Of a stretch of 64,000 bases of DNA, positions 20,062 through 63,776 are shown piece after piece. The stretch lies in contig NC_087096.1 of the NCBI RefSeq assembly GCF_963855985.1, positions 5,952,001-6,016,000 on the forward strand, given 5' to 3'. The translations under genes and the position numbers were made by a program. Source of the stretch: Ostrinia nubilalis. Its lineage: Eukaryota; Arthropoda; Insecta; Lepidoptera; Crambidae. The notes beneath the pieces are model-generated. The model was not told the origin of the DNA. It was given only the letters and a program-made list of their open reading frames with translations, and did not search any database. Positions within the stretch are counted from its first letter, which is position 1, and each line of letters opens with the position of its first letter.

Positions 20062-21031
20062 TGTGACATCCGGCTAGCCAGTCACTATCACAGAAGTAGG
20101 TCGTGAGTAAAAAGAGTGTATAAGATTACAAGATGTTTATTCTGTCTTATTCCTGGCACATAGCTGACCGAGAGATAGTCTAATGTGAGGGAGGACACTG
20201 GCCTGAGGATGATCCGCGAAGCTTCCGAGGGTCACAGCAGAGATACTATGTCGGGTAGTGTCTGAGGGTAGTTCTTGACAGCAGGGGTAGGTAGGTAACA
20301 CGTTACTTCCCGTAGGTCTTCAGTCTTCTGAACTGGTAACGGTTGGGGTCAATCAGGTAGCTCTGATCCTGGAATCCGTAAGACAAGCGTTAGCGAGCTT
20401 GACTTGACATCTGCCTTGGCGAGCCCTAGGCCACGTCCAATACCTCACAACTATTACAATTTACGCGAAGCAGGTTTCGGTTAGGCAGCACTAAAAACTA
20501 TAAAAACACTACAAATAAGCATGGTAATAAGAACTCACCCTAGCGGGATCCAAAAGTTATATAGATTATAGTGTTTAACTTCCAACGTATTTAAACGAGA
20601 CGCGGAGTGCGCGTACGTAACGGTTTCGCTTAGGAGAACGGCACAGGTGTTGCGTAGTATAGCAAATTGCGGTCTGGCGCGGAGAAAACCGAGCGACTGC
20701 CAGTTCGTGTGATCGGCTGTTGTCGGAACCCATCGGCTCGTCGCGCGGGTTAGACACTCCCACCTTAGGGATGCGTGTGCGCTCCGCGCAGATTTAAAAA
20801 CCAATTATGTGTGAGATTAAATTTAGGGTTCATTATATTAGTTAATTTAATTCTCTTGTAGCATTAAGATTTAGTTTTAAGTAAATTAGTATTAAGAGTT
20901 ATTGTTAAGTTTTATATTATTAAATTAAGTATATTTTTAATTTATTACGTAGTTTTATTTTATTATGCTAATTTTATTTCTAATTTAAGATTAACGTTAG
21001 GACACGTCTCTGCGTAGTCCATAACGTTACA
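20062..21031 (-). repeat. 3' LTR
   Basis: 970 bp. On the minus strand it runs TGTAACG...GTCACA. A purine-rich GCGGCGGAGTAT directly precedes it (minus strand), as expected of a polypurine tract. Confidence 0.9.
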
Positions 21032-21127
21032 ATACTCCGCCGCAAACGGTAGGATTTTGCGTATCTGACGAAAAATCCGTCTACTAAATCTAAACTAAGG
21101 TTGGTCTTAATCTGTTTCATTAACTAA

Positions 21128-22690: not shown

Positions 22691-22797
22691 GTACGCTATA
22701 GGACGTTCAACACTATCAACGGTTTGAGTGAGCAGGGCTCCTATACCATAGTCACTCGCATCAGTGTGAACCTCAAATGGCTTTCACGACCTACTAC

Positions 22798-23777
22798 TGT
22801 GACATCCGGCTAGCCAGTCACTATCACAGAAGTAGGTCGTGAGTAAAAAGAGTGTATAAGATTACAAGATGTTTATTCTGTCTTATTCCTGGCACATAGC
22901 TGACCGAGAGATAGTCTAATGTGAGGGAGGACACTGGCCTGAGGATGATCCGCGAAGCTTCCGAGGGTCACAGCAGAGATACTATGTCGGGTAGTGTCTG
23001 AGGGTAGTTCTTGACAGCAGGGGTAGGTAGGTAACACGTTACTTCCCGTAGGTCTTCAGTCTTCTGAACTGGTAACGGTTGGGGTCAATCAGGTAGCTCT
23101 GATCCTGGAATCCGTAAGACAAGCGTTAGCGAGCTTGACTTGACATCTGCCTTGGCGAGCCCTAGGCCACGTCCAATACCTCACAACTATTACAATTTAC
23201 GCGAAGCAGGTTTCGGTTAGGCAGCACTAAAAACTATAAAAACACTACAAATAAGCATGGTAATAAGAACTCACCCTAGCGGGATCCAAAAGTTATATAG
23301 ATTATAGTGTTTAACTTCCAACGTATTTAAACGAGACGCGGAGTGCGCGTACGTAACGGTTTCGCTTAGGAGAACGGCACAGGTGTTGCGTAGTATAGCA
23401 AATTGCGGTCTGGCGCGGAGTGGCGCGGAGAAAACCGAGCGACTGCCAGTTCGTGTGATCGGCTGTTGTCGGAACCCATCGGCTCGTCGCGCGGGTTAGA
23501 CACTCCCACCTTAGGGATGCGTGTGCGCTCCGCGCAGATTTAAAAACCAATTATGTGTGAGATTAAATTTAGGGTTCATTATATTAGTTAATTTAATTCT
23601 CTTGTAGCATTAAGATTTAGTTTTAAGTAAATTAGTATTAAGAGTTATTGTTAAGTTTTATATTATTAAATTAAGTATATTTTTAATTTATTACGTAGTT
23701 TTATTTTATTATGCTAATTTTATTTCTAATTTAAGATTAACGTTAGGACACGTCTCTGCGTAGTCCATAACGTTACA
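22798..23777 (-). repeat. 5' LTR
   Basis: 980 bp, the same sequence as the 3' LTR apart from a tandem 10-bp GGCGCGGAGT-type duplication near 23410-23430. Short ORFs within both LTRs are not genes. Confidence 0.9.
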
Positions 23778-25457: not shown

Positions 25458-25639
25458 TTCATTATAATCACACCCCATCGCCTAGGATTACTGTAGTACA
25501 GGTCCGTATCTCGCACGGCGCGTCTATGCAGCGATTCGGTTCCATCCGATTGCCTCATCAAGCAGAACACGAATATCGAAACTGTCATAAGCGGCTTAAA
25601 GTGGCTTCCAATCCAGAGTGAAGTGCTATTGATTGGGAC
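25458..25639 (-). CDS. Channel exon C9: end of module C CNBD and following linker
   Basis: Residues 1260-1320, phase 0 to 2, acceptor ATACAG|GTCCCA, donor ATGAA|GTGAGT. The helix WIGSHFKPLMTVSIFVFCLM aligns with the CNBD C helix of module A (exon A7), followed by a charged linker with Arg pairs. The acceptor has a poor pyrimidine tract and the strand before the helix is shorter than in A and B, so this is the least secure exon. The strong GTGAGT donor says the gene goes on leftwards. Confidence 0.6.
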
Positions 25640-28600
25640 CTGTATGCGACTATACCGCTATAGGGACCGATATGCGACTGTTATACAGCTCTAGGAACGC
25701 TAGGATTCGATGTAGGACTGAACACGTGCTCAAATTTCAATTATAGTAGATATGATCGTAGAGTTCAATATATTGAATTGAGAACTGTACTGGATGGATA
25801 ATATCCACTGGATATTCATTACTCATTTATGTGGGTATAACGTGGTTTTAAAATACATAATAATATGTGCCACTGCCACCGACAGGTATAACGTCGTATA
25901 TCAAATTCCTTGTGTGCGATATTGCATCTGTGTCCAAGACATTGCATCTCATATTAAATTAGTTAACCCCCAGGCTACCTCAGGCAAATGGCTGTTGTCA
26001 GTCTCCATTTGAGAACTTTACGGTAAACGATAGAATATGGCTAATTCAACATAGGCTAATTACTACTCCCACCTACTAATCCAATGTGTGTATATTAATT
26101 ATGTTAATTAAATTACAATTACCTTCAATATAGTTTATATCACCATTGATGTGGTGGTGGGGTCAGCTATAATGGGACGTTTAAAGTGCCCTGAAAAGGG
26201 CTAACATACTAAAAATAATTTGAACTTAAAAACTACTACAAGTAAAAGAGTGTGTGCTTATAAGTTATTTTTATTAATAGCTAAGTTAAAATGTATCTTA
26301 TGAGTGTTAAATCTGAGCAAACAAAACCTCAGACCGATCCATGATAGACTTTTTAGATTCCGGGAAAAACTGTATAATGTTTAACCACGTATCCAGGCTG
26401 AGCGTGAGTATACTGACCTGAAACGAAATGAAATGATATTTACCTACTCATAACCTAAATAGATTGCACGCACAAATTAGTGTTCGATTTGAAAGAATTA
26501 TTTTTTTATTTATACATATCTAGAGGCTGTCCGTTTAGCCCCCCGGATAAACTAAGTTTACCTACTGAAATGACTGCAATAAAATAATTGACAGTTTCGT
26601 ACAAAAATTGTTTTTGTTGCGAAATATCGTTATCGTCTAAAAATTTTTGTGTTTTAAATCTAAAACATGAATATCGAACTACATAAATGAATATTAAAAT
26701 GTACCTTTGTTTCAGCCCTGTATGAGAAACAATGAGCGACTCCTTTATTCATTCCCTGCAGGATCCCAAAGACGTCTCCAGGACCGAGCAGCTCGTGGGT
26801 CGTCTCAGTCAAGTCCGGACGCACGGACACCACGGAAACCACCCCGGACACCACCCAGTACATACTGGCGTTACAGTCACCGGCTACGACTATGTAGTTA
26901 CCTAAAATAAATAATAATAAATATGCTTAGACATTTCACACTGCGCTATCCAGTCCCAAACTAAGCAAAGCTTATACTATGGTCACCAGGATAGGACTGG
27001 AAAAGGTATTTTCCAAGTATTTCCACAGCGACCAGACAACAGAGATTTGGAGTGTTGTTCATAGCCAATAAAACTTTCATTTGTCTAATAAGTTCTTAAG
27101 AAGGATAAATGGTATACAGGGTGTTAGGTAAATGGGTATATGAGCCGACACCAGCCCATGTTAACATGGTCATATAAATGGTATGGTGAAGTCAGAAATT
27201 TGATATTATCATTTTATTTATTTTTTATTTTCATACAAAATAAATTTTATAAAATCCGATTTGTATGAAAATTAAAATAATTAAAATGAAGATATCAATT
27301 TTCTGACTTCACCATACCATTTATATGACCATGTTAACATGGGCTAGTGTCGGCTCATATACCCATTTACCTAACACCCTGTATAAATCAAAGACATCTG
27401 CTTGCATACCACTGATGATGAATAGTGTTTCATTAAAATTACAAAGGACATCATCCACGTTTCATATATTTTTGGTCCAAAATCAAAAGTGCCGGCCAAC
27501 AAAAAAAAGTGCTGTATTCTGACAGAATACGTCTGCCTTAGCATTTGTTACTATGGCACCAAAGTCGTAGCTCCACTGTGCGTCGAGCATTTGAGATCTA
27601 AAAGTCATCGATTATTCATACATTTTTTGTTCAAAATCAAAAGTGTCGGCCAATAAAAAAAAAAGTGCTGTGTTCTGATAGAATACGTCCGCCTTAGCAT
27701 TTGTTACTATGGCACCAAAGCTGTAGCACCACTATGCGTCGAGTATTTGAGATCTAAAATTCATCGACGATTCATACATTTTTTGTTCAAAATCAAAAGT
27801 GTCGGCCAATAACAAAAAGTGCTGTCTTCTGACAGAATACGTCCGCCTTAGCATTTGTTACTATGGCACCAAAGCTGTAGCACCACTGTGCGTCGAGTAT
27901 TTGAGATCTAAAATTCATCGACGATTCATACATTTTTTGTTCAAAATCAAAAATGTCGGCCAATTAAAAAAAAAGTGCTGTATTCTGACAGAATACGTCC
28001 GCCTTAGTATTTGTTACTATGACACCAAAGCTGTAGCACCACTGTGCATCGTAGTATTTGAGATCAAAGTCAGTCGTTTCATATATTTTTAGAGCTCAAA
28101 TACTACGATGCACAGTGGTGCTACAGCTTTGGTGCCATAGTAATAAATGCTAAGGCGGATGTATTCTATCAGAATACAGCACTTTTATTTTTTGGCCGGC
28201 ACTTTTGATTTTGGACCAAAATGGATGATGTCCTTTTTGTAAGCTATGTGACTTACCGGGAAAGAATACAGTGTAGTTTAGTACACCAGCCAGTTGTCGC
28301 AAGAACTGCTCTCCAGTATCTTGGAAGATGTAGCAGTTCCTCAGATGGTGTCCAAACATAGCTGACATCAGGTCACAGCGCCTGACGTAGGGCGTTTGTT
28401 CCAGAAGTACTGGCAGCTGGTAAATATTAATTGAAATAAATCACTTTTAAAAATGCTAACTTTAAACGAGTATTATTGACTGAATGACTACTAATTAACA
28501 TGTAACAGTACCTACTTATTTAGTAGGTAGTTAGATTCAAGTGCAAAAATGATCATTTTTAAAAAGGAATGTTCGACTTTTGGCTGCAATATTGACAGTT

Positions 28601-31600
28601 TCTATTGGCACAGACTATAATTATGTTGGTAGGTAGCTAAAGTGGTCATTAAAGTAAAAGTTCTCGAATGAAATCAGCTAAATAATTTGCAGTGATGCCA
28701 TGCTGTTACAATTTTAATCGTTACAACACTGCATAATATAAGTCACTATCCATTGTTATGACTATTAAACTTCAGTACGACGATAAAATAAAAATAAACA
28801 AAAATACAGTGTTCTTGCCAAAACTGCCATGCCATTGCCACGCATATCTGAACCATTAATAATAGTGGGAATGGAGCAGAAATGTACAACTACATTCATG
28901 TAATGTTTCCATCTATCAAAATCTGAGTTCAGACAGAATCATCGTGTTGCCATATAGGAATTTCACATTTAGAGCTTTTTACGAAAAAACGTTAGAATGT
29001 AACTTAGTCGTATTTACCTGACGGCCGCGTTCGGTCACCCAAAGCTGTTTTATGTATTGCCAGAACTTTTTCAACTGGTACCCTAAAAATGTTATACAGT
29101 ATTATAAAATTGTAAGTGTAATAAATTCTGAGACTAAAAGGATACGTGCACGTGCAAGATAAGTATTGCCACAATTGGTAAACGATAAGTCGCATTAAAC
29201 ATCGTTTAAGGAATTTGGCCATCGATTTTGCATTAGGGCTTACCGATAAATCTTTACCAAGTTAAAATTACCTTTGTATAAAGATACTAAAACATAATAT
29301 AACATACTTAACAAACTTTGTTGAGATTTTGCGGAAAAAGAAATGCATCACTCACTGCAAACAGATTTCCATACAGGTAGTGTATAATAAAGTGCCTTAT
29401 TTACTTCACAAAAACGTATTTACTTGACAATCCCTGGTTCTTCAGCATATCAATGAGCTCCCGAGTGGCGACCTCGTAAGCCGTCAGGGCATACTTCGAG
29501 GAGTACGCGACCTGGATAGCCGTAGCCACCACCGTTCCAGCCAGCATTTTGCCGCAGAGCAAGCAGATGGACATTATTGCTATTGGCAGAAAATCGTCCA
29601 CCACAAACTCATCTCCACCAGTCATGGTCAGCTGGGAGATTATCACGTATATGGACGTGACGTAGTCCCAGTTCCGTTGAGGCGTTTCTCTATAAGGATA
29701 CATGTTATTAATAATGGAATTTTGTATGCATTTAAGTTTCTGTCTTCTTCAAATAACAAATTGGACCCGGTATACCTACATATAGAGAGCACCCTAGGGT
29801 TCCAGAAATTTTTAACGTCTAGGCAGCGCCCACTTCCACCGGTTTTGTCAGTATTTAATAAGACTCATGAAGACCACGTCTCGGGAATTATAATGTGCGA
29901 GTAGGACGCCATTACTCGATAGGCCGACGACCTCAAGTAATTGGTAGCAGCTAGATAAAAATAAAACCGAAAAACGTGCTCTCTGATGATGATGACTGGA
30001 AACTCCAAAATTAATACAATTTTGAGACTTACTCATCAATGAGATGCATCTTGAGCGTGCGTATGATGCACACCGGTGACGTTGCGATCAGAGTCAGCAA
30101 CCAAATGCATGTGAACGTATGGATGAGCAAGACTACCACTATGGCCGTCATAGCTACCTAAACATGAAAGAGTTATTTTATTGTTTTAATTACACAGGTT
30201 TTAGGCCTTATTATAATTAAATAATTCATTGTCAATAAATCAGCTAAGGGATAACTACTTTCACCAAGTAGGTACAGACCGCTAGTTGATCTAGAACTTT
30301 AGGTTTCTTTGGATTGTGAGGTAAAAATCAATGAAGTTTGATGAAAATTATTTGTGGGAGGTTAATCGTACTGATATAATATGATCTTCAGATTTTATCT
30401 CGAACCAGTGTGCTTACCATGAGTTTACGTTAGGTGAGCTCGCTAGCGAATACGTCAAAAAATTCTATGAACATTTTATTTCTTGAAAGTAGCCGCTAGG
30501 GGCGCTGCACAATATGTCATACATTTAAATGACATTTTTTTACGCAGTCGCTAGCGAGCACACCTAACGTAAACTCATGGTAAGCACACAGGAATTCAGC
30601 TTGGAAACTGTAATAACACGTACAGTTGTACCAAGGTTACAGAACATAGCAGGCTTGAATCAATCCGATCCGTTCATTTTGATAAGATGTGACTTGTTGT
30701 TACAGGCTTTCTCGAACTCCCCAAAATAAGGAAGAATGTTGCAATATTTTAAACTTAAAGTAACCCTTAGGCATGTATATTCCTTAGGAGGTTATAAAAG
30801 AAACTAGGTCTCCCTAAAGCCTTTAGTCCTAAAACTCCATACAAAAGCTAACTCCCTATTTTTCTGGTGTAACAACTCCACTGAGCAAATCCAATCTCCG
30901 AGCTCATCAGAAATCGTTTATCCCAAGAAAATAAAGTATCTGTCCTTAAATATTGCTTTTATTGTACAGTCGATAGCACATCAGACAACATTTTTGTTAC
31001 ATAATCGCTTTTATCACAACTACACAGATGACACAGTGTTTATCTTGATGCGCGTCGGCTGTACGCGTATCATCAATACTTATTATCATAAGAGCTGTTA
31101 CATCAGGAACGCTACGTTATTATTTAACGGTTATAGAAAGAAAAGCTGGCCAAAAATTTACAATAACTTCCAGGTATAACTCGCGGTTGAACTCAAACTT
31201 AAGTCAATTTCCCAGAAATTGAATCCGAACGTATTCATTCCTACTTCTTTAAACTCTTCAATAACAATATTGTACTGCTTCCATTGAACGATACTTTATT
31301 TTCAGTTTGGCCCTAAGGTTGACTGGCAGAAAATGTCCGAAAGGCATTAAGTCCGCCTTATGTACACCGTTCTATGTGCATATAAGTTTTAAATAAATAA
31401 TAAATAAACGATTTATATTCAGTTTTGCTTTGTTTATTGGTTCTACATTTTTAAATTACAAACATAGGTAATGTACCTAATGTAAAATATCAGCAGTACT
31501 TACTTGCAGTGTTGTTAAATTGTTCGTAAGTTCGGCAGATGTTTTCCGGTAAAACTCTATTAGATATTTCAGCCTGAACAGCTTGTTGGCTCGAAAGTAA

Positions 31601-34600
31601 TGCATTGCTGACAACTTGTATCTACAATAATAATTTTACAGTCCATAAAATAAATAATAATAAATAATAATAATAATAAATATCCGCCCCGCAGGGCAGC
31701 TTTGTGGCGAGCTGTTGGTGAGTAGCGACACCACGGGGCCAGTTGTTAATCCGAGTGCTCCCGAGAGTCGGTCAAGACCCTCGTCTTCGGCTTGCCGAAG
31801 TGGAATCCGAGAGGGTCTGCAGGACTTTCACCTCTGGCTTGCCTTAACCGGCCGGCCAGAGTGGAGTCGCTAGAGCTATATGCTCCAGGGGTGGAAGTGT
31901 TAAAGGGCATAACGCCGCGAGTAACTTCGGAGAAAGCGCAGCACACCTCTCTACACCCCTGAGCTGGCAGACGCCAATGTTGCCCCTCAGTCCGGTCTAT
32001 ACGACCCATGACGCCAGGAGGGGCCCATTTAGTCGCTGGCTAGTCACCGCCTGCCATTTTTTCAGTCCGAGACTATGAACCAGGCAGGTGTCCCGTAGTC
32101 TCCATCCATAGCCCAGTAACCAGTCCATCCATCCTTCATCCATAACCCTAGTCCATTCTCCAATAACTGCAATAGCTCCTGTGCACAGGCTGGGGATGGT
32201 CTCTGGCTACATCCCATGATATAGTCAGAGACTAGATCCAGCATGTGCACCACTTTCACTTTTGTCGATTATTTTGCGCTTAGAACGGCCTCTACGTGTT
32301 GGATCTGTATCCCCACGCAAGCCTTATAAAGGACCGGGCCACTTTTGACCCGTGAGCTCCAAAGCGTACAAACATAAATATCCTTAGACATATCACACTG
32401 AGCTTCTAGTCCCAAACTAATAAAAAATAGTAACCCTTTAGTCCGTTATACAGGTTGACATTGAGGTCGATGGAATCCTTTTAAATTAAGACTCTAGGGG
32501 AGACTGGGGCTGGTTTTAACAGGGGTAAATACTTACAGCGTAATTACATAGAACCTATTCGACTTACCACGCTAATTCCAACGCACTTTGTGCCTACGAA
32601 TAAGCGCGAACGTGTCTCGACCTGTCAGTTGCCGGCCAAGCATCACGGGAGCAGGTTGCGTCAGACGCCTCCAATTTCACAGGAAAATGAACTTTTTTAC
32701 GTGTTTAATTTTTTGCATTACTCTTTAAATATGTATCGTAGAAAATTGGCTTTGGTATTGCATAAATCCGAATTTATTGTATTTTTCATTAATTTCAAAG
32801 TTTTAATCGAAAATATAACCGGTAAAAGAAAAACAATAATTTTGTGCAAAATGAGGTCGTGGGGTTGGTTTTAACAAAATGCACGGGGTAGGTTCTAACG
32901 CGTTAATATTTGCCTCGAACATTGAGTAAGACTGACTTTTATAACCAAAGTTGTATGTTGATTTATTAGAGGAGTATTTTTTTTGTTATTTTATTTGATA
33001 AAGATAGATTTAGTAAGTTTTAAGTTTATTACACATGTTTAAACGGTAAGGAGCCGAATTTCAATGATCATATTTTGATGATCAAAAATTATTTTTTGTT
33101 CTTTGATTTGAGTAATGCTGATTGAGTGAGTCAGTTTATTTAACTAATAAAATTTAAGTTTTCTGTTTATTTTATGAACGGTAAGGAACCGCATTTAATT
33201 TTATTAGTGTTTCTAATAAACATTGATTTATTATTTTGTTGTTTATCTTAGCCAAAATCCCATTCCCAACTATAAATCATTTCTTACCCCCGCTGTTAAA
33301 ACTTTCCCCAGCGATGTTAAAACCAACCCCAAACCGGGGGTAAGATCTAAAAAGTGACTTGTTTGGCAAAACTCGATTTTTCTCAGATATGGTAATTATT
33401 ATACAGGCTGTTAGGTAAATGGGTATATGAGCCGACACTAGCCCATGTTAACATGGTCATATAAATGGTATGGTGAAGTCAGAAATTTGATATCATCATT
33501 TTATTTTTTTTAATTTTCATACAAAATAAATGTTATAAAATCCGATTTGTATGAAAATTAAAATAATTAAAATGAAGATATCAATTTTCTGACTTCACCA
33601 TACCATTTATATGCCCATGTTAACATGGACTAGTGTCGGCTCATATACCCATTTACCTAACACCCTGTATACATTTTGTTGTACTTTACGTAAAGCTCAT
33701 TAAATTTGACATCACGTACCAAAAAACCATGTTTCTTGCTAAAGCAGTTTAGAAAATATTACGCTCAAATCAAAATTTGTTAGGACCAGCCCCAGTCTCC
33801 CCTACTCATAATACATAGTACCTACATTCCCTGAATATGAGACAAATCCAATGAGTTTTTTGTCATAATTTTACTATTTACTTGTATTAGTGTGCTCTTA
33901 AAAAGAGTTCAAAACGATTTACAGCATATCAGACTACACATTTTTGTTGCAGAATAACACCTAGGTACTACATCGAAATAAGATGCCGCAGTGTTAAGTT
34001 TGATGTGCTGTCGTCTGTACAAGTTTTAATTTGGACTTATTGGATTTGTCTCATATTCAGGGAATGTACTATGTACCATTAGTAGAGTCTTAGTTTAAAA
34101 GGATGCCAACGATTTAAAAGTCACCCTGTATACAATCGAAGTAACTGACTGTTTATCTTATATGTAGTTTCATTTAAAATAACGATAGACTACAAATAGT
34201 AGCCCTTATGAAACCATATCTGCTGTGCTCACTGAATGCGCATGACTGATAACATTATTCTGATGATGTCTGCTCGGGGCTACCAAAACATGGCTAGTGT
34301 TGTCATAGCAAATGGAAACGTCGATAATTCACTATCGATATAATGTGCGGAAATATCAGACATCTTTAGAGATACTACGGTTGATGGTAAACGTTTCAAA
34401 ACAATACAATATTGTTTAACCGTCTTAGACTGCATCTCACTTAACATTGTGATTGCGGTCAATTACCTGCTTTTGGCTACGTAAAAATAAGAATGAATAA
34501 TAACCCAGTGGGTTTTTGGAGATCTTTTATACAATATTATCTTTCGTCAATATTAATATAACTATTGTAGGAAAAAAGATGTCGGATCTTTCCTTCTTCC

Positions 34601-37600
34601 CTCTTTGGATTGACTGATTTATTGTAACCAATCATTGCAAATTCTTCTTGGTAGCCATATCATCGATATCAGTTCGTCGATAGTCGACTCGTCACAACAC
34701 TAAATTCATCGTATTCCACCCCGTATTGTGAAATTAGAAAATGACAAATTGAATTTGGATGTAATGAGTGTTGACGTGATAATATGTGTTCGGTTACGCT
34801 TCTATTTCTGTGGTAACGGAATGCACTGTGGAAGCCATTAATATAATTAAAACGTAATTATAAAGCGCCAACGGTGATAAAACGCCACATATGGAATGAG
34901 GGTAAAAAAAACTAAAAAAACTCATTTATTTATCTCAAAATTTAATATAGCTTGCTCTTATTCATCACTTCGGGACAACATATTATTGTAGACTGGTGCT
35001 GAGAAGAAGTGGCGAAAGAAATTCAGTCGCTTTTGTCAACCTCTTTTTCAATTAATACTTAGTTACAGAAAATACATCAAACAAGATAAGTAAAAGGTAA
35101 CCGGTCACCTTATTTATCTGTTAAACGTCTCTATCTGAGACCTGTGAAATCTAAAGCTTTAGTTTAGACTATCAGGAACTATATCAGGTGGTTAACCAAG
35201 CCCTTAATTAAGCTATTCATGGCGTCTCTATTTATAAATCACGTGGCTTCTGCCATAGTCAGAAAATGGAAATGTTATTAAATCTACTAACTGTGTATTA
35301 TGTAAGCTTTAATTCGGTTCTCGTTAATACCAAGATGTTCATAAAATTAGTATTTTTTTTAAACTTTAGAATTTTGCAAAACTTTGTAAGTGAGTTGGAT
35401 TAATAAAGTTCGTTAACAATGTTTAGAAATACTTTTCAGTAATACACATTGGGAAAATATAAATAATTTAGGTATAAATATAGGTAATCAAGAATATTTT
35501 CCTACCGAAAACAAAATCCGAATAGCTCTAGAGGAAAATTGACGAATATATCCGACCAGACCCACACTTTATGCTTGAAATATCGTTTCCTGCACTTCGA
35601 GGCGTTGACGATAAGGTCTCCATGCTTGTTGACGAAACCCTAAAAGTAAATTTAAATTGCAATGATCAATGACTTATACTGGGATCATCTAATCTCCAAT
35701 GCAAAAGCATGACTCTGTAATTAATCAGAGGAAAATGGAGGATTTAGCTTACAACCCCACGCTGATACATCAGAGATGTAATGGATTTTTTTCCGAAGTG
35801 TGTTAATTGTATTTAACCCAAGAGCTAAGTAAGGTACTGAGTACAGTACAGTACAAATTCTATACTAAACCTAAGTACATTAAATATATTATTTGTATTT
35901 TAGGAACAATACAAACAAAAACAAACGAGGTTTCGTTTAAATTAACATGATGCTAATATAATAATTGTAATCTTTACACAACAACACAAAGGCGTTGTTT
36001 TATCAAAGTAAATTTACACTGAGTAACTCAAATATTACGCCTAAACATATTACTTCTTATCTTTCAATATTAAACAGACGTCTGTCTCATAACTTCTAAC
36101 AAGAATGGCTTAAGACAAAGCCCTCGTGATTAATATCATAAAGCTGAAATGAAAAAATAAATTTGCGAACATTTTTATGAACTAATCCTATTACTTTGAG
36201 AAATACAGTTTCACTTTTCACTTGGATTATTAATTCTCTTTAAAATTATTTGATACTGACCTGATGCATCGTTAGAAAGACTTTAACATAAAAGAATACG
36301 TCGAAAATGGACTGCAGCCAAAATATAACGTAACAATCGTTCAGAGTGGTCAATTCGTAAAGTGCTATCACATAGTCTATTGTCGCCATCAGGCATGTGA
36401 AGTAGCCGAATAACTGAAAATTAAAACAATATTTTTAAAATACCTAATGCAATTTCTTGATAAAATTTCAAGAACTTCCACAATTTTTCCGAGTATGAAA
36501 ATACCTGTATCTAATGTTAAAGGTAGCATGTCAAGGCAGTTCTGAACAGAAAGGTCACGCGTGTAATTAGATCCGTCCAGGAACGAGAAGGTAATCGTAT
36601 AGAGAGTAGAGACTGCCCACTGGTGATGTTCACTCGTAACAGTAATTTGTACCAACCAGACAATTACATTACAGACCGCTCGCCTTACACAGCGACCGCG
36701 TTTCTGGTAAATCTAATACGTAATCGAGGTGACGTCACCTGATTCTCAAATCAGGACTAATCCTTAGGGGCAGATGCACTCTTCCATGATACGTAGTGTA
36801 AAGCTAGTTTGTATATTTTGTTCCCAATTTGACGGGGATAAACTTACGTCATGTTCGGTTGATTCAGGCATGCTGATTGTACGAAAAAAATGATTTTGCA
36901 TCTCGAAAGGACCTATAAGCCGTTGATTGGTCTAATTAAGCTACGACAGCTCAAAAATCTGCCCACAAAATTTGACCGAACTGATTGTAACCTTAATGTT
37001 ACAACGAATACCTTAAAAGATTATGGTCTATTAGCGCTAAACATTATTTAACTTATTACGGCTGCATTACTATAATCAATGAGGGCTGGACGAACACATC
37101 CCGTTCCCTTACTCCTTGTAATTCCCTCGCACAATCCCATGTAGGTAAGTTTTCATCTTATTATTGAGTAACACTAATACCTCCACATCTTCCTCGTTAT
37201 AGGTATTTATCTTACCTGAAATATCCATGTGCCAGGACGCTGCAAATTACTGATACTCGCGTAGCTATGGTACGTCATCACGCTGGTGGTTGACTTGGCC
37301 TGGCTGATGTTTGACTGCGACACACGGGCATTGAGGTTACCTGCGTTAAAGAAATCACATGAGCATAGCTACTCCATGCTAATTAACCGATCAGCTCAGA
37401 CCAGATTAATGAAGTTTTCGAAGTTGGATCCCATATCAAAATAATGTCAAAAACCAGAAATTAACGCCTTCATGGAATACTCGTTAAATAGTTAAGCTTT
37501 TACAATCGAAACTTCTGGGTTCGTTTACCAGATGATAATAAATAGAGTAAAATCACTTCATGCAACTTTTAGTGAAGTTATAGAAAACTGAAATGTCGAA

Positions 37601-49600: not shown

Positions 49601-52600
49601 GCAGTTGTTTATCTTTTGATTAAAAATTTGGCATCTTAACTTAAAGGATAGATGTTATTTCCCATAATATGCACATTTTCTCTCTTTCATTTTACATTTT
49701 CTACATCTAAAGGTAGGTATTTAAACAATTAAAGCTTCATAGTCGCGATTACTTACCATCCGTGACAGTTAATTGTAATAAGCATGAAGTTTGAAACAAC
49801 ACATAGTACTAATTCAAAAAACAGTTTTGAACTGGAGTTGAACTCTTATGAATTTAAATTAAGTTCGTTTCTTTTGTTCTTCAAAACATTGTAGCCAACG
49901 ATTTGAAGCAGTTAAGTTATAGTGCTTTTTTTTTACTAACATTAAAGTAGCAGAGACCTTTTAACAAGGAACAAAGGAATGAAAAGATGCGTCTGAAATC
50001 TAGACTGCAGTATCAAAGAACGGAATCTTAAACCTGATCCTTTTTTATACATAACCATTTCCAAGTTGTCATCATTATTGAACCATAACAAAAGGCAGTA
50101 AGATTCAAAATGATGGGAAGTATATTCCCATTAAATTATACTTACAGCAATATTGTAAGGGATCATCATAATGTAATACAAAGCCAACACGAATCGCACG
50201 CCGCACCAGAACTTCAAAAATATGCCATGAGGAGTAATGCAGCCTGGCAAGAACAGGTAACGAATATATCTGGAAAAAAAACCATATTTAATAATAATTT
50301 TAACGAATGTAACTTTAACCCTTACATAAAACGAAATATAAACTGCTAGCTTTTATCCCACAGTTTCAACCGCATGGAATTCGATCTTTCGAGCGTCCTG
50401 CATCTAAAATTTAAATCATTACCAGTACTTTCGGAGACTATTCCCTCCAAACAAACAATTAAATCTTTCCTCTTTATAATATTGGTATAGACAAGTATAT
50501 TTATAAATGTTGTATCATGAATTTCCACATTGTTCATCTAACTTAATTATTTCGTTTTGAATTGATATTGAAATGGTAATGAACTGAATAAAGAAATATC
50601 TTTAGAAAAATTACATTCATTATTTAGCATTGTATGAATACAATACATCACGATTAAACAAATTAGGGCTCCAAATGAATACGTAATGCCAAGATCCAAC
50701 TTTTTCTTTTGTTTTTAATATTATACCTACATAATTCCCGGCATACAGGGTGGACAGATTTGCAAAAAGTTCAACAGTGGATATAGAACATGTTTCATGT
50801 TCTTTTTTTTCAATTCTGTTTGATTTATGTAGTAGACTATCATGACGTACTAGGAAGGTACCCCATAATATACACCATAATCAGTCTAAAATAAACATTA
50901 TTTAACTTGTTAATCTAAATATCTAATGTAGGTATCCAGGCTCTGCAAAAACAAATCTCTGAAATCTCGTCTCGAAAAAAAAGAGTAATGACATACTTAG
51001 GTAAATTAGCTTTCTTGACATAAACTTAAACGGTTTATATTTATTTTTTGTGTAACCAGTGACAAAGTTAAGTAGGCGTTAAACATTTTTGGATAATAAG
51101 TTTCAACAGTTTCCTGAAACAACTGACACTCACCTCATAACGCCCAACTTGTCGAAAGTCTTCACATACTCAACTCTGTTGCGGCCTGTGAGCACCACGA
51201 AACTCTCCTTTATTTCTTGCTGCAATAAAACAGTTTTTCGATTAGCAAATAATATATCAAGAGTTTATAATACCTGTTGGTATTATGTTCATATTTTCCA
51301 AAAATAAACTCGGATATTGGATTAATTTAATTACAACTAAAAATATTGTTAAAACCAACATAGTAATGTTCAGTGATGAGTTAGGCAAAAATATGGGCCA
51401 ATTGATTAATAGTTACTTGGGACAAAGTGTAATCAACCATTGTTTACCGGGTGCTTCCTATTTAGAAATTATGAGAAAAATAACTAATTATTCGTTCGCA
51501 ATAAATACCACATTAGTAATTTTAATGGGAAATAGGGGCAATGTAGGCAAAAAAGACCTACCAAACATTTTTGATAGCTTATGTTTACTTAATGTAGATA
51601 AAATAATTTTGTTCACATTCCCCTACAGTAGAAGCTTGCCACAGGAGGAAAATAATTTAAGATATAAATTGAATTTGACATTGAATACACTGACATATAA
51701 TCAATGCAAATTCCATGTAATTGACATTAACAATTATTTAAAAAATAAAGGTTTACTGACAATAGATAAATATAATTATCTAAATAAATATTGCAAAAGA
51801 CAAATAGCGAACTCGCTAGCATATTTTATTAAATATATAGCCATTAATTTGGCTAGCCAAACTGCTTTTATTGAGCAGAACATGGATGTTCGACCCTTGG
51901 AATCTGTTCCAAATCATAATTTAAATTACATCACAAGACAATAGAGGACAACTCTGGCATACAAAATTCGGGTGCAAAGAAATTTAACGGTTTTAATTTA
52001 GTGCATCAAAATGTACAAGGCTTCTCCGGGAAAGACTTGGAAATTGAGTTATTTATCCAAGAATTGAATATTCATGTCTTATGTTTAACGGAACATTGGC
52101 TCAGGCAATATGAATTAATGCTGAGCATTAATAGTTATAAGCTCATTAGTTCATTCACTAGAGAGTTAGCTATTCGTGGAGGGTCACTAATATTAATCAA
52201 TGATAAATTAAAATGTAAAGAGCGTAAAGATATTGTATCTCTCTCTGTCGAGCGAACTATTGAGCTGTCATGTGCAGAACTGGACGACTATGTTATTGTA
52301 TGTGTATATAGACCCCCATCTAGTAACTATGAGTTATTTGAAACCACAATGGAAGAGGTACTTAGAAGAGTTTGTAATAGTTCAATGAAAGTAGTTGTAT
52401 GTGGAGACTTTAATATTAATATAATAGAAGATTCCTCTCTTTCAATACGGTTTTTAAATTTATTCAAATCTTTTAACTTGTTAAATCTTTTCTCTGAACC
52501 AACTAGGGTGACTCCAACATCAGCTACTTGCTTAGACAATATATTTTGTAACTGCTTAGTGCTAGAGAAATCAATGATAGATTTTGTTAATTCTGATCAT

Positions 52601-55600
52601 TGCGGTCAAATAGCGTCATTTCAACACCATTTTGTGCCATCGAGCAAGGAAATAGAATATAGACCAGTCACTGCATCCCAGAAAGACAAATTTAAATCTC
52701 AAATATCTTATAAGGTCCCACTTTTGCATTCTTTTAACTGTAGTATTAATATTTTATATGAGCAATTATTTGAATTAATCAAAAATGAGTTCAACAAAAC
52801 ATTTCCTAAGAAAAAAATTAGTATTAAAAACAATAAAACTAAATTCAGTGACTGGGCTACAGTAGGTATTTATATTAGTAGGAAAAAAATGTTTGAATTA
52901 TATGGTAGAAAAGCCTATAGTAGTGACCCGGACTTTATAGAATATGTAAAAAGATACTCAAAAGTTTTTAAACAAGTTTGTACTATGGCAAAATCTATTT
53001 ACATACGTGACAAAATCAAAAACTCTGGCAACAAAATTAAAGCTACTTGGAATTGTATTAATAAAGAAACTTGTAGAATTATATCTCGGGATGATACATT
53101 CGCATTAAAAATTGATAACAAGTATATTAAATGCAAAGATAAGGTAGCAAGCGCATTCGAAAGTTACTTCTCAAATGTACCAATCATAACAACAAGCAAT
53201 CTTAATTCATGTTCATATCATGCAATGTCTCTTCTCGAAGGTTGTGTTGATGTTTGCAATAGCCCATTAAAATTTAGACAAATAGACCCCATAGTTATTA
53301 TAAAAACTTTCAAAGAACTAAATATAAAAAAAACAGAGGATATATGGGGCATATCAACAGACATAATAAAACCCATCATTCCTCTTATAGCTCCCCATTT
53401 AGCTCATATCTTTAATGAATGTATTAACGAAGGTCAGTTCCCCACCCTGATGAAACATAGTAAAATTATACCATTATTTAAAGCAGGAGACAAAAGTGAC
53501 CCATCCAACTTTAGACCTATATCGATACTACCTGCGCTCAGTAAAATATTCGAAAAAAATATTTTCAATCAACTACTGTCTCATTTTAACTTAAATAAAC
53601 TGTTTCATGAAAAACAATATGGGTTCACAAAAGGGAAAAGTAGGACCGATGCAGGGGTTGCTCTTATCAAACACATTTTCGATGCTTGGCAGGAGAAAAA
53701 AGATGCTATTGGTGTATTTTGTGACTTATCGAAGGCGTTTGACTGTGTTGATCATCAAACTCTGTTATTTAAGCTAGAGCATTATGGCATATCAGGCAAA
53801 GCCTTAAGCCTATTACACTCTTACCTCTCAGACAGATTACAAAAAGTAAATATTCACGGAACTAACTCTTCAGGCGCCCCTCTAAAAATGGGAGTGCCCC
53901 AAGGCTCAATACTGGGACCATTGCTCTTTCTGATTTATATAAATGATCTACCTTTTTATTCAAAGGACCTTTGTGAGATAGTATTATTTGCTGATGACAC
54001 TTCTTTAATTTTTAAAACTAACAGGCGTCAGGAAATATTTGACGACGTGAATAATGCTCTTTCCAAAGTATTAGACTGGTTTACAACTAATAATTTGCTA
54101 TTAAACGCAAAAAAAAACTAAATGTTTAAAATTCACTATGCCTAATGTCAAACAAGTTAACACAAATATTACAGTAAATAATGAACGTATTGAACTGATA
54201 AACTCTACTGTTTTTCTAGGTATTACTCTAGATTGTAAATTACAATGGGGCCCCCATATTGCTGCCTTGGCGGGAAGACTTAGTTCAGCTGCCTTTGCGG
54301 TGAGAAAGATCAGAAACTTGACTGATGTTGAAACAGCAAGGCTTGTATATTTTAGTTATTTTCATAGTATTATGTCTTATGGTCTTTTACTGTGGGGCTC
54401 AGCAGCAGACATAGAATCAATTTTCATTTTACAGAAAAGAGCTGTTCGGGCAATATACGGTCTTAAATCACGTGACTCGCTTAGAGAAGTTTTTAAAGAA
54501 ATCAATATATTGACTGTGGCTTCGCAATATATATTTGATAACATTATGTATGTCCGTAAACATCTACATTTATTTACTAAGAAAAGCGACGTCCACTCAT
54601 TTAACACGAGACATAAGAATAAACTTGCTGTTCCATCTTTTAGGTTGCATAAAATAGGTAATTCATTCTTGGGGAAATGTATTACCATATTTAACAAAAT
54701 ACCACACAACCTTGTCGAATTACCAATAAACAAATTTAAGATACATATAAAAAATACCCTTATGTCCAAAGGGTACTACAAGGTTCGAGACTATATTGAT
54801 GACAAGGATGCGTGGTCAGTTCAGTCTGCACATATTTGATGTACTCCAATTTGGTTATTCTTAGCGTTAGATATTTCCCGGCAATTAGTGGTGACTGAGT
54901 TTGTTCCGGCGTTTCTTCTCAGCACTTGCCATATGTTTGTCTCGAAGCGCTGGTAGGGCCCAAAAGATAAGGAGACATGTAAAGTGCCCATAAGGGCTAA
55001 CTTTTCTTTTTTATTATTTTCTATAATAATTTTGACGTTCATAAGTGCCACTTGTGGTCTAAACTGAATAAATACTTTTGATTTTGATTTTGATTTTGAT
55101 TTTTACACGTTAGCGTTACGTTACATAATTATATATTATTATCACAGAACAATAAGTAGGTAGTCTACGAAAATATTTATTAGTATGTAACGAGTTGCAC
55201 GATTCCTCTATTGTCATGCCAGGAAACAAATCAAATCAAATCGACGTCCACTGGTGGAAATCTTTGAGGGAGGCCCTTTCCCTCCAAGATTTCCATAAGG
55301 ACCGGTGTACTTCCTGCGACCTTCACCAGATCGTCAGTCCACCTGCCCACGCTACGTCTCCCGGACCGTGGACACGTTTTAAACTCGTATTAGGTACCTA
55401 CTAACATACTAGTAACTGGTAATAGTTCGATGTCAATTTTAGTCAAGTTTTTTTTGTTTTATAAATACCATTGTCTTGACATGGAATAACAGACTCGTGG
55501 TTAGTCCGTCTATCATAAAATTAAAACTTGATCTCGTTTCTTACCGCTATCCTGTTAGTTTTCGCGTCCAATCGACCTGTCAACGGCTTCGCTTCTTCAT

Positions 55601-58600
55601 AAAATTTCGCCTTGTTTCTAAGCTCGGGGTCGTCCAAAGCCTATTATCATAATTTTAAAGTTATCTACTTATTTACACAGCAAAACTACTTTGAAGTTTT
55701 TTACAAAGCCCTGTATAACAGCTCTAGATAATAATATGAAGGGATTAAGAAACTCTAAAGTAAATAATTTTGGTTAGATAGAAAGCAAGACAGACAGAGT
55801 TACTTTCGCATTTTTAATAATAGTATTAGTATAGTAAATACAAGTATTGCAATTATCTATTTATGTATAAAGTTTTTATTTGGAAATTTAAATAAGAAAA
55901 AAAAACAAGTTTGATATGAATAAATCCGAAAGTAACTTTATTTGAATAGTTCTAAGATGAATAGTTAATTGACGAAGTATCGATTTAGTGAATTGTTCTT
56001 AGGCGAAATATCTAATGACGAACTGTGCTGTCGACGAATCGTACGCTGGTGAAAGGTTCAGTACCTCTAGTACGAAAAACTTTCGAGTTCGTTTCGTTGC
56101 GTATTCAAAGTGTCATCGAAAAATTTTGTATGAAAAATTAAACAGCGCCCCCTAGGGCGGCTATAATATAGGGGGCGCTGTTTAATTTTTCATACAAAAT
56201 TTTTCGATGACACTTTGAAAACGCAACGAAACGAACTCGAAAGTTTTTCGTACTAGAGGTACTGTTGGCGAAGCGGCGACATACGAAATGTTGAGTCGGC
56301 GGGCAGTCATGTGAAGAAACGAATGTCGGCGACCAGTTCCAGACTCATAGATAAAAGGTTTATTTACAAACAGGTTACTAGCAACTACAATAACAAAGTA
56401 TTTACTATCCTCATAAAGTTTGCGAGCTTTATTGATATTTTGTACGCAGACAATAGAAAATCAATCGCTTGAATAAAATACTCGTAACATTGTGTAATGT
56501 AGAACATTATACAATGTACGAGTATTTTATTACAAAATTTGTATGCTCGAGTTACTGCCACCGGTTTATTAAATTGAACGCTAAAATAGAAAATAGCTGC
56601 TATGCTGTTCCGAGCGTCATGTTACTTTGATAAATTTATTGTTACTACAATTTTGTTTGAATAACAAGGAAATATTAGTAATGCATTTGTTTACGAACTT
56701 TCTACATCACAAAATAAGCGTAATTTTTTATGGAATTAAAAGAAAAGATTACACAGAACTCGGAAGTGTACAAAGTAATTGTGAACTATCTTAGCTGATT
56801 TTTGTTTCAGATTCGCACGTCACGCTCACAGCTAGGGTGACGTCCAGATAAGGCTCTCTTTTGCAATGTAATCTGTGTCCAAATAAATAAATTCTAATAA
56901 TAAATAAACTAAATAAATGAATTCCATTCTAATTTAATTAATAAATAATTATTTTAGTATGAGCTACACTGAACATTGACAGGGGGCGTCCCGTCAACAC
57001 CGGATCGCTGGTTCCGATTTTTGCCACTTTGGACAACCATATTACCGCAGCTGCGGAGGGCGCTAATATCAATACTGGGTTTGGTTTTTTATTTTTTCTT
57101 GAAACGTCAAGCGTTTCAGAATTGTGGGACTATACGTCAGCGCACGCCCGCTATATGTCACAAATGTCACACAACAGGACAATATACGTAACAGCTAGAC
57201 TCCCTACTCGACTTTGAACTGGTCACCCTACTCGCAGATATAATGCATGAATCACCGTGATAATGGGGTGACTGATGTCCGGGAACGTGCCCCAGCTCTG
57301 CACGAGTGACGTGTATTCCACGTGCAGCAGGATGCAGTTTGTTGACGTCAGCACCGTGTACACCTGGGGGGTGATTAGGGGGTGTTAAAGGAGAATGAGC
57401 CTTATTGCATCCAGACATAAAGGTATGAAAATTAGCGCTGTTTTGGTAGCAATTTTCACAGGTAAGCCCTTTCACACACATTCTTTACATGCAAAACCAT
57501 TTAGTAGGTAAGATACTAATACTAATAAAATAAGTAAGTACTTAAGTTACCGCATAACTTACTAATCTAAAGATTCGAAGATTACATAATTCACCGAGAC
57601 AAAGTAAATAGGTATTTAGATGTGGTGCCAAGTACGTAAGCGCAAACTTAATTTTATTTAATTTACTTAATCAATCCATAAAAGTTATAAAACTGATTGA
57701 ATAAGTTAAACTAACCTTTGGCAATCCAAAGAGCATTTCCACAACTCCAAAATGGTTGCTGGGTCCGATAGATTTATCTATTTTACCGTGATGATTCAGT
57801 AGATTACAATGACCCTGTAATAGACCTAAATAATTTAAAAGAAATAAAATTTCGCTATGAGAACTGTGCGCAAAAAGCTTTTATTATTGATAATCTAATT
57901 TCAACCTTTTATACTAACAGTTATGAGTTAAGATTTAAAATTACTATCTAGCTCTGACCTTTTGTATGATGTACATATCGCGGCCGATGTCACCCCCATG
58001 CTGGACTATCTCGTTGTCCGGCAGAACAATGGTCCTGCTGTTGGCAGCTACCGTCTGCAGAAAGTCGCGATTGCAGCCCTGGAGACGAAAATAGTCTTAG
58101 TTGTTTTAGGTCTAAATGTGGTGTTACATTCTGCTTCGAAGTTTGCGGGTGCCAGTCGCATAGTCGCGACAGCAATAATATAATTACGCGCGAGCGATAA
58201 GGATGGGCAGCTAGGGGTCATTGGACAAAATTCTACGTGCGCACAGACCGGGCTTAGATAATTTAGGTACACAATAATTATTTACAAAATAGAGACGTGG
58301 AAATTGTATTGCGTGAAAATTCGAGAGCCTAGAGCGCGAAAAAGAAAACAAAAGAATATTAATATTGGTCGTCGAAGAAGAATGTAGTTTTTTTAGTGGC
58401 CAGTGTGCGTGAAAATTCGTGAGATGAGAGCGAAAAAAAACAAAAGAGTAACAATATTGTTCGTCGAAGAAGAATGTAGTTTTCTTAGTGGCCAGTGTCG
58501 CGCGACCAAGGAGGTGATCGTGTGCGGCCGCAACACTTGTAAAACGTCGTTTCAATATGTAACCAATGTTTACTAAATAAAAGCACCATGTCCTACCTGA

Positions 58601-61600
58601 AATATGGGACAATGTATAAGAGTTTCCACCATTTCTATTGCCAGAACTTCTTGTTGGATGTTTGTGGACATATCTCTGAAAATTTCCTCCGTTGATACAG
58701 CATTGTTGTAATACCTAAAAATAATGTTATAAGTAGGTTCATTTTACTAAACAGCGGCGTAAAGAATTGACTCCAATTTTAATAGCGCTAAATAACTAGA
58801 AAAGACTGATAAATTATACCGAAATCAGGTTTCGGTCCTACAATTATTCTAAAACAACAAACAAGCATATTAATATTCAACCAGAAAGATATTTTCCTTC
58901 GAACCACTTAATTAAGTATTATTAGTGTTCGATGAAACAAGAAACTAAGTTAATATAACCAACAACTCCGCATCAATTAATCGGTATAAGATTATCGGAT
59001 AATATTTTCCTTGTTTTGGAGGAACAAACTTTACCATTGGACGGAGAAAAACTTCTTCACGCGCGCTTTGATCTTGCCGCTTACGTGATTCACCGTCAGG
59101 AAGTAGAATAGTTCCCGCATCGATTCCTGGCCACAAAATAAACTTTTGCACAAAGGGTAAGTTTAAGTATCCATTACTATCCATCCGCAGTATCCATACT
59201 AATCCTTACTTACTTTATATCTACTTAATACAATGTCATTCGAGGAACTCTAGCCCGAACGATACACATTCGTAAAGAATGTACTTGACAGAAACTCCCA
59301 AAAAAACAAAAAACGGTCATCCACTCCAAATATCATTCCAAAGCTACATAGAACCCTCAGCGCTCCTGCACACGACGCCGCTACCGCGTCGCCGCCGCGC
59401 CGTCGTAGCGCCTTTGCACTGTTCAGTGTTCATAGTTTCATACGCACCGAGTAAAACCGCAGTAAACCGGCGCGGCGGCGGCGTGGTAGCGGCGTCGTGT
59501 GCAGGAGCGCTATTACATGAAACAGTATTGGATTATTTTAATATTATGATCAGAAATGACATCTATGTATATACTTTGGAACATTGGACCCCGATGGTAA
59601 GCCGCAACAGAAAATCATTGGGTTACAACCGCAAATCACGACCGCATGCACTATTATCTGCAATTTTAGCTTCGATGTAGGTATATTTGTGGGTTGATAC
59701 GATTACACACCTTAAATTTAAGCTTCCTTTGTGTACTTAACAGGAACCAGCTGCAAATCTTCGCTGTGTACAAGCAGCTGACATACGAGCCCAATACAAT
59801 TATTAGCATTACCTGCAAAATTAATTACGTATTTAAGTATACAGTATATAAGCCTTTGTAGCCTATCGAACATGAGGTCCTGCCATCAGGAAGTCAAAAG
59901 TAATTTATTTTTGAGCTTAAAATAATTTCAACCTGGACAAAATAACAAATCATCATGATTATCATTGGGTCTTTGAGACTAATCTCAATGCAGAAAAAAG
60001 ATCGTCTCTAATTAACCAGAGGCAAAGGGTATTTTTACCACCACCAAACAATTCTGTACCCCCAGTGAAAAGGGATCTAACTCGACTTAGATCAAAATCG
60101 ACTTTATAACATAATGTGAATCTCTGAAAAATTAGCTATTTTTGTATCTAATCGGTATGTTTCTACGACGTATAGAAAAGAAAATAATTTTGTGCCAAAT
60201 GATACAAGTAAGGCTTTGTGAACTTTTCTTTCGTGTATATTGATACATGTCTACTTTTAACAAAGTGTACCGGAGGCTTCTTTCACTTTTTTGTTGTGTC
60301 AAGAGGTATGACTCGTGTTACTACTTTTTACACGATTGAAGTTGTGCAGATTGAATTTGTGATTAACAATATAAGATGACGTGTAAAATGTTGTAAGTTA
60401 CTTAGATCAAAAACATTTGAAAATCGCAACTAATAATTTGGTTAATTATTTGGTGTAAAATGATACAACTTAGCCCAAACGTCAGATTAAAGGAAAAAAT
60501 AATGTCGTAGTTTATAAATCAAAGAACTTTAGTTAATAGTTTTAATAAATCTACTAGTAAAACATATAATTGAATTCATAGTGCCTAACGTTGTCAATAA
60601 AAGTACTTAATAAGTGCATTATCGAATTTACAAGAGCTCCAACTACCAGAAATCTTTATAAACAAAACTCATCACCTTTGACAACAAATTGAACTGGGCG
60701 AGTCATGTCGAGAACAAAATAAAAATGGCCTGTATAGCATTCCATCAGTGCAAGAGACTCATTGTATGGCCCTCTGACACATATTATTATGGATCACTTG
60801 TGTGGTGGCACAGAACACAACTATCCACAGCAAGATCAAAACTCCAAAACCTGCAACGCCTAGTAAGCATAGCGGGCACTAGTTGTATGAGAACCACTCT
60901 ATCGACATCACTTGAGTACCTTCTGAATCTTAGATCTTTAGACCTCTTTATTCAGGAGGAAGCGCAAGCAGCCGCCCTAAGACTTAAAGGTAAGAACGGC
61001 ATATAAAAGCAAAACAAGGAGACAGGACATTCCACGATCCTGCACAAAACCCTAATAAAAGAAATATCTCTCACCGAGGCACCTATCGACAGAATTCCCT
61101 GTGTTCACATCTTCGACTGGAGATAATAATATAATATCCAGCTTACAACGGAAACGCAAGATTGCTCTGGAATCAATGAAGTTAGGATATACACTGACGG
61201 CTCCAAAACCCAAAAAAGTACGGGAGCTGGTGTCTTCTCGAATTACCTAAATATACTAAGAATATCTACAACACTAGATACATACAATACAATTTTCCAA
61301 GCAGAATGCAATCAGAGCAGCACAGGCGATTGCAACCATAGACATCCGAGGTCTGAATATAAAAATAATCTCAGATAGTGCAAGCAATACAAAGCAACCT
61401 AATATACTACATTATAATACTTATATTGGAATGCCATGACGCACTCCTAAGTTATTGCAGACGCAAATGGCGTTACCGTGCACTCCTGAAGTGGATCAAA
61501 GGGCACAGTAACTCCTTGAGCAACGACGCAGCAGATGAACTGGCCAGAAGGGGATCGTACAGGACGGTATTTGGTCCGGAACAATTATAATGCCGATACC

Positions 61601-63776: not shown

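Follow-up and report, generated by a model that had tools for sequence, protein, structure and literature searches.

Ostrinia nubilalis LOC135074947 is, judged by its sequence, a whole-gene duplicate of CNGK, the K+ channel of sperm known from sea urchin and zebrafish. Our preferred reading, to which we assign a probability of roughly 0.6, is that this four-module CNGK duplicate encodes a chain predicted to form a single pore that is likely asymmetric, is not selective for K+, and is not opened by cyclic nucleotides. GYG or GFG is given as the K+ filter of CNGK (PMC4749565, extract), and neither motif occupies the filter of any of the four modules. The channel is of CNGK descent yet lacks the CNGK filter.

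Database entries for the channel are mostly uncharacterized proteins, a few being named, for instance, KCNH member 6 or cyclic nucleotide-gated cation channel; one Plutella orthologue appears in a table of SINEs as "CNG cation channel subunit A" (PMC8010984, extract). Searches of the open-licence literature gave no account of it, and for insect CNGK they gave one pupal transcript only. Insects are not named among the carriers of CNGK in the extracts of the CNGK literature, and the present gene thus extends the family. A 2018 account describes the four domains of CNGK as lacking obvious specialisation and confines asymmetry to the Nav/Cav/NALCN line (PMC6259924, extract). In the line described here, of CNGK origin, each of the four filters has diverged in its own way, as have one voltage sensor and the ligand pockets, and filter residues are conserved across dozens of proteins.

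Organization of the gene

The analysis began with a window of 64,000 nucleotides, at 5952001-6016000 of its contig, which holds the 3' two-thirds of the gene and opens inside module 2. Stop-to-stop frames and splice signals placed the coding part of the window on the minus strand, from 63776 to 26310, in 30 exons that join to 1310 residues and remain open throughout (Table 1). This exon model was built before the annotated protein P0002 (LOC135074947) was seen, and the two agree: all 1310 residues are identical to residues 503-1812 of P0002. The domain order given in a preliminary description of this DNA, a pore-S6-C-linker-CNBD followed by two S1-S6-C-linker-CNBD units, with linkers between them and a single continuous frame, is borne out by the stop-free translation, in which PF00027 is found in three stretches (E 4.4e-31). 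Several details of that description required correction. It counted 29 exons where the model has 30, it held intron phase to be constant whereas the 29 introns are distributed over phases 0, 1 and 2 as 19, 6 and 4, and it extended the gene to 25458, which is a donor-like site past the stop. Coding ends at 26310 and is followed by TAA at 26309-26307 and, about 30 bases further on, by AATAAA at 26275.

Two candidate exons were rejected. The segment 25657-25458, considered as S1 of a further module, is ruled out by the stop and AATAAA that precede it, and an exon at 30782 was replaced as module 4 S4 by 31621-31504, which the annotated protein bears out. Inspection by eye of the exon lists left of 25458 (lenient for phase 0, strict for the other phases) showed no channel-like chain.

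Sequences in the PDB matching the 1310-residue chain (SthK, KCNH1, KCNH2, CNG, HCN and GORK; best E 4.4e-19) jointly span all three modules, and together with the Pfam result they place the three-module signal far above chance. The same Pfam and PDB searches gave no match with unspliced 15-kb translations of both strands in which stops were written as X, and the lone pore-S6 fragment had no meaningful match in the PDB. The exons are short, and the signal of the channel became visible only after splicing.

The preliminary description had predicted a fourth module off the right edge or to the left of 25.4 kb, and had suggested extending the contig. When the next 60 kb of the same contig to the right was scanned for exons, module 1 and the first half of module 2 were found at approximately 64.5-77.9 kb in window coordinates; on the left, the gene ends inside the window. 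The 15 rightward junctions, up to the exon that starts at 63776, comprise 14 GT-AG junctions fitted by script and one GC-AG junction, at the donor of the ninth exon, recognised by eye because the script accepted GT donors only. Joined to the window exons without the ninth, the rightward exons yield 2020 residues that are 98.3% identical to the O. furnacalis protein P0001 with 28 gap positions, two of which are a VH pair present in module 2 of P0001. With the ninth exon the full chain has about 2046 residues in four 6TM-C-linker-CNBD modules, and the whole gene occupies about 52 kb. P0001 is 99% identical in the protein search. Unlike P0001, P0002 skips the C-linker and CNBD of module 1, although the genomic sequence contains the corresponding exons with open frames (about 70522-72513); the skip reflects either an annotation gap or a skipped-exon isoform. 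P0001 contains four PF00027 stretches and four matches to a module HMM that was built with P0001 included.

Table 1. Exons and 3' signal of the O. nubilalis channel gene, numbered in window coordinates
Feature	Position	Strand	Content
Likely first exon	near 78533	-	ATG and conserved N-terminus MRSYSEPSIGTVGTG
Rightward exon 1	77874-77761	-	
Rightward exon 2	77070-76824	-	
Rightward exon 3	76690-76587	-	
Rightward exon 4	75023-74848	-	
Rightward exon 5	74026-73957	-	
Rightward exon 6	73826-73695	-	
Rightward exon 7	72513-72303	-	
Rightward exon 8	71727-71549	-	
Rightward exon 9	71130-71053	-	26 residues; GC donor CAG/GCAAGT
Rightward exon 10	70629-70522	-	
Rightward exon 11	69979-69838	-	
Rightward exon 12	69323-69181	-	
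Rightward exon 13	66589-66416	-	
Rightward exon 14	66098-65871	-	
Rightward exon 15	64559-64458	-	
Exon 1	63615..63776	-	module 2 turret, pore helix, filter GTGTSD
Exon 2	59711..59812	-	module 2 S6
Exon 3	59035..59126	-	module 2 C-linker
Exon 4	58597..58714	-	module 2 C-linker
Exon 5	57959..58078	-	module 2 CNBD, first half
Exon 6	57716..57814	-	module 2 CNBD phosphate-binding cassette FGVVEMLFGLPK
Exon 7	57256..57363	-	module 2 CNBD end
Exon 8	55545..55640	-	charged linker, modules 2/3
Exon 9	51134..51219	-	linker, modules 2/3
Exon 10	50146..50269	-	module 3 S1
Exon 11	47663..47857	-	module 3 S2-S3
Exon 12	47488..47547	-	module 3 S4 start
Exon 13	47131..47359	-	module 3 S4-S5 and turret
Exon 14	46498..46551	-	module 3 pore helix
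Exon 15	45666..45817	-	module 3 filter GCGCTP and S6
Exon 16	45019..45138	-	module 3 C-linker
Exon 17	43758..43973	-	module 3 C-linker and CNBD first half
Exon 18	41990..42064	-	module 3 CNBD phosphate-binding cassette FGNFTG
Exon 19	40281..40473	-	module 3 CNBD end and linker start
Exon 20	38290..38367	-	linker, modules 3/4
Exon 21	37216..37340	-	linker, modules 3/4
Exon 22	36261..36413	-	module 4 S1-S2
Exon 23	35506..35639	-	module 4 S2-S3
Exon 24	31504..31621	-	module 4 S4
Exon 25	30033..30157	-	module 4 S5
Exon 26	29424..29689	-	module 4 pore helix, filter MTGGDE, S6
Exon 27	29018..29082	-	module 4 C-linker
Exon 28	28257..28416	-	module 4 C-linker and CNBD start
Exon 29	26705..26901	-	module 4 CNBD phosphate-binding cassette
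Exon 30	26307..26417 (coding to 26310)	-	module 4 CNBD end and TAA
AATAAA polyadenylation-type signal	26270..26275	-	after stop; sequence match alone

Relatives and a second lepidopteran family

A protein search with the exon-model translation returned 49 matches: 48 from Lepidoptera, including the identical P0002, and one from Tetrahymena (E 8.7e-4). A profile of 15 of the 23 full-length relatives (A1), four of the 15 having gaps in their models, gave 82 matches. Besides the present family, enlarged by P0050 to 49 members, these comprise 27 proteins (P0051-P0077) that form a second four-module family of Lepidoptera, together with eight from Phytophthora and a single Prymnesium protein. A second profile (A2), made from 11 proteins of the second family, gave 71 matches and added a partial protein of the stick insect Timema (P0096), a protein of the crinoid Antedon (P0097), and nine further lepidopteran members, one of which is named a putative tetrameric potassium-selective channel. 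By a hand count of names, both lepidopteran families occur in 25 species, from Plutella to butterflies. The present family was found in no insect order other than Lepidoptera, which is weak evidence of absence since the search relies on shared five-letter words. In the O. nubilalis genome, two regions guessed from CNBD matches gave no match to the second paralog.

The second paralog follows the same plan as the present family, is 29% identical to it, and also has a degenerate ligand pocket. It differs in its filters, which are K+-like (mostly TNALGD, SVGYGD, GAGFGD and ITGTGD), and in matching PF07885 and PF00520. Insects also retain a less changed CNGK-like four-module channel (P0051-P0077, P0087-P0095, P0096) with K+-like filters and degenerate nucleotide pockets. 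In Hyposmocoma kahamanoa the present family is represented by two diverged copies, P0042 and P0047, whose contigs have equal listed lengths, perhaps through a local duplication. The module HMM also recognises four 6TM-CNBD modules per chain in Phytophthora P0078, P0079, P0081 and P0085 and in P0098 and P0101; in these six chains the third module falls into two pieces, and in P0085 the first module is broken. P0078 has four PF00027 and four PF00520 matches. Oomycete tandems have been described as two-repeat (PMC7576140, extract).

Four divergent selectivity filters

Filter residues were compared at places 75-80 of a K+ filter. In Antedon the four filters read STGYGD, STGYGD, SVGYGD and STGYGD. 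Timema has NSGLGD and GIGFGD in modules 1 and 2 and TTSYGD in module 4, with a gap at module 3. Those of the present family are NVIFGD, GTGTSD, GCGCTP and MTGGDE, with variants. All four filters are covered in 37 of the 49 proteins. G[YFL]G at places 77-79 is absent from every filter covered (0/41, 0/46, 0/48 and 0/45 proteins for modules 1-4, or 0/180), and GxG of any kind at these places occurs in 2/180, as GIG in module 2 of both Hyposmocoma copies. A looser, register-free pattern was matched in 15 of 177 windows, which apart from the two Hyposmocoma GIG are GLG, GIG or GFG at places 75-77.

The replacement residues are themselves constrained. In module 1, N75, F78, G79 and D80 are present in 41/41 proteins, with I, V, L or T in the place of the first filter glycine; module 2 is looser (G77 in 45/46, D or E at 80 in 40/45). 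Module 3 has G77 in 48/48 and C78 in 47/48, and module 4 has G77, E80, and D or E at 79, each in 45/45. Four distinct constrained filters in one chain would make the pore asymmetric, if the chain forms one pore. The filters of the paralog also differ among modules, and the asymmetry thus arose before or beside the present line. Some K+ preference could remain, given G77 in modules 2-4, G79-D80 in module 1, and the Hyposmocoma GIG. HCN channels have a GYG filter, yet Na+ passes through them. More generally, selectivity is stated not to be predictable from primary structure (PMC7576140, extract).

Voltage sensors and cyclic nucleotide-binding domains

The S4 segments of modules 1-4 carry on average 3.06 (n=33), 1.26 (n=47), 3.00 (n=44) and 5.85 (n=41) lysines and arginines. 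Module 2 S4 is nearly devoid of arginine (mean 0.11, n=47), unlike that of the crinoid CNGK-type protein. The residues that hold the ligand are presumably the Glu and Arg of the phosphate-binding cassette, and the two are not kept intact across the modules: both are lost from modules 2 and 3, and partial loss is seen in modules 1 and 4. All 15 aligned orthologues retain the Glu of FGE in module 1 and have no Glu at the corresponding place in modules 2-4, whereas in the crinoid it is missing from module 4 alone; in module 2, most of the 15 have a Glu two residues further on. Modules 1-3 have other residues where the crinoid cassette has its Arg, and module 4 retains an Arg in SYRAET, close to the phosphate site (top patterns of 21). 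Largely the same losses are seen in the paralog and in Timema. As they are common to these proteins and partly to the crinoid, they are not marks of the present gene alone, and insects probably gave up nucleotide binding either at an early stage or on several occasions. Loss of the pocket would not by itself exclude membership of CNGK, as alkaline pH rather than a nucleotide opens the zebrafish channel despite its CNBDs, and the sea urchin channel uses its third CNBD alone (PMC4749565, extract).

The CNBD halves are the best conserved parts of the chain (mean entropy 0.40-0.79 vs 1.07-1.49 for the membrane parts, in 23 full-length proteins), which, in view of the pocket losses, suggests that the CNBDs serve some other task. 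An AlphaFold2 model of modules 3-4 from 22 sequences, of moderate confidence (pLDDT 70.1, pTM 0.55), shows two units, each a membrane-type helix bundle with its C-linker and beta barrel, and a disordered linker. In Foldseek it is closest to human CNG channels (E 2.4e-17; some 460 aligned columns, the length of one module; TM-scores of 0.5-0.6 on the target's length). The predicted model supports the module fold, and does not extend to assembly or filter geometry.

These features bear on two other accounts of the protein. It might be a scaffold or regulatory subunit with a dead pore, for instance one that works alongside the K+-like paralog. The residues at the first filter glycine of module 1, the nearly arginine-free S4 of module 2, and the stronger conservation of C-linker and CNBD than of the membrane parts would all suit such a protein. 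We nevertheless regard it as unlikely, since key filter residues invariant or nearly so in 41-48 proteins are hard to explain without a pore function, and a four-module chain would leave a partner subunit no obvious room. Less probable again is that the protein is an ordinary K+-selective, cyclic nucleotide-gated CNGK, diverged merely in appearance. The shared four-module plan, the one-to-one kinship of modules, and the filter glycines noted above agree with this account; against it stand the absence of G[YFL]G from 180/180 covered filters where the crinoid has GYGD four times, the GYGD and GFGD that the sister paralog retains in modules 2 and 3, respectively, and the loss of ligand-binding residues.

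Descent from CNGK

The preliminary description had left open whether the gene is a diverged CNGK descendant or a separate line, and a tree of single modules decides for CNGK descent. Thirteen proteins were cut into modules to give 40 rows, with one fish KCNH as the outgroup; P0007, P0066 and P0087 were left out for size and Timema module 3 for length. The sole CNGK reference in this tree, from which the recorded sea urchin and fish channels are absent, is Antedon P0097, which is listed as uncharacterized. We assign it to CNGK on the strength of its four matches each to Ion_trans and CNBD and of a GYGD filter in every module. Modules of the same number from the present family, the paralog, Antedon, and, where present, Timema group together (bootstrap/SH-aLRT 97/96, 99/97, 98/98 and 86/87 for modules 1-4, the last below the starred level), and the tree requires four label changes, the minimum possible. 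Like P0097, which has about 2100 residues, the O. nubilalis gene and P0001 have four tandem 6TM-C-linker-CNBD modules in one chain, and the CNBD fold is found in each module of P0001 by PF00027, with beta barrels in the modelled modules 3 and 4. The present protein and P0097 are 23% identical over their length, and their modules are one-to-one counterparts.

A tandem formed by new internal duplication within insects, rather than derived from CNGK, might be proposed because the searches found the present family in Lepidoptera alone, but it is rejected by the clustering of modules by position with crinoid and other insect modules, and we give it very little credence. Equally improbable is a row of single-module genes or transcripts: some introns span several kb, retroelement-like stretches occur in two of them, and 25 of the 48 relatives are annotated with fewer than 2000 residues, but the linker exons join in frame, series of invariant residues mark linkers 1-2 and 2-3 (linker 3-4 is variable), 23 of the 48 are single proteins of 2000-2094 residues, and the last module ends, inside the window, at a stop with AATAAA beyond it. 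The single gene of the preliminary description therefore stands, with no sign of one gene per module and with four modules in one chain in 15/15 aligned relatives.

The order of branching within insects is less clear. Timema groups with the present family in module 1 (94/90) and with the paralog in module 2 (87/63), and its placement is open in module 4. In a concatenated tree with long branches (15 rows, 1382 columns), the present family joins the K+-like paralog with support of 64/1, and AU tests on the same long branches gave p 0.575 for Timema with the present family and p 0.25 for Timema with the paralog.

A predicted mechanism

The chain of the CNGK duplicate is predicted to fold as a pseudo-tetramer, its four modules closing, by analogy with CNGK, into a ring around one pore. 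Acidic filter residues of modules 1, 2 and 4 would then lie at the pore mouth, with the K+ cage gone, and Na+ and/or Ca2+ might pass. Gating could be by voltage, through the charged S4 segments of modules 1, 3 and 4, and/or by pH or another ligand. Nucleotides would not be the trigger, and the ring of CNBDs may act as a mechanical or protein-binding part.

Nav, Cav and NALCN channels lack CNBDs. They resemble the present protein in having four differing domains in one chain and an asymmetric filter with acidic residues; the PF00027 domains in four stretches here, and the fact that the matches listed are CNBD channels, argue against membership of that group, and the likeness of the pores would be convergent. 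Single-module CNG, HCN and KCNH channels have one module per polypeptide, which the present protein does not. KCNH subunits, each a single module, have K+ filters and carry a PAS domain at the N-terminus. A CNBD that does not serve cyclic nucleotides is described for KCNH (EAG/hERG; PMC7576140, extract), and the same is predicted for the present protein.

A more far-reaching scenario, which we hold to be doubtful, is that a symmetric K+-selective CNGK became an asymmetric four-domain Na+/Ca2+ channel in moths and butterflies, with its four spent CNBDs as a gating ring, and perhaps mediates sperm Ca2+ entry in place of CatSper, of which this group is reported to lack a full set. If true, the step taken by the Nav, Cav and NALCN line would have been made a second time, independently. 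Arthropods that have sNHE and sAC but no CatSper have been noted, and a replacing Ca2+ channel has been called for; silkworm testis expresses sNHE and sAC, and the butterfly Heliconius retains two CatSper subunits (PMC6660944, extract). A word search for channel terms in two sperm papers (PMC13060016, PMC11288676) gave no match. The suggestion of a function in sperm is a guess, drawn from CNGK and the single report of a pupal transcript; the protein is a candidate channel for lepidopteran sperm biology. The less changed paralog in the same species offers a test of how K+ selectivity is lost from one module to the next.

Repeats and mobile elements around the gene

To the left of the channel gene, an LTR-retrotransposon-like insertion at 20062-23714 has direct repeats that pair 20062-20361 with 22798-23097 at 100% identity and 20669-20968 with 23415-23714 at 99%. 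A minus-strand open frame within it (21131-22783) encodes RNase H-like and integrase domains, and the insertion is probably a shortened element, its inner part being short. The intron between exons 8 and 9 holds a plus-strand LINE-like element (51246-54836), which, read as it stands, has endonuclease and reverse transcriptase domains at 51920-54118. Plus-strand frames at 60662-62011, within the intron separating exon 1 from exon 2, appear by eye to be retroelement RNase H-like; the two frames compared with Pfam gave no match. The intron between exons 28 and 29 contains a tandem repeat (27451-28051) of three copies spaced by about 155 bases.
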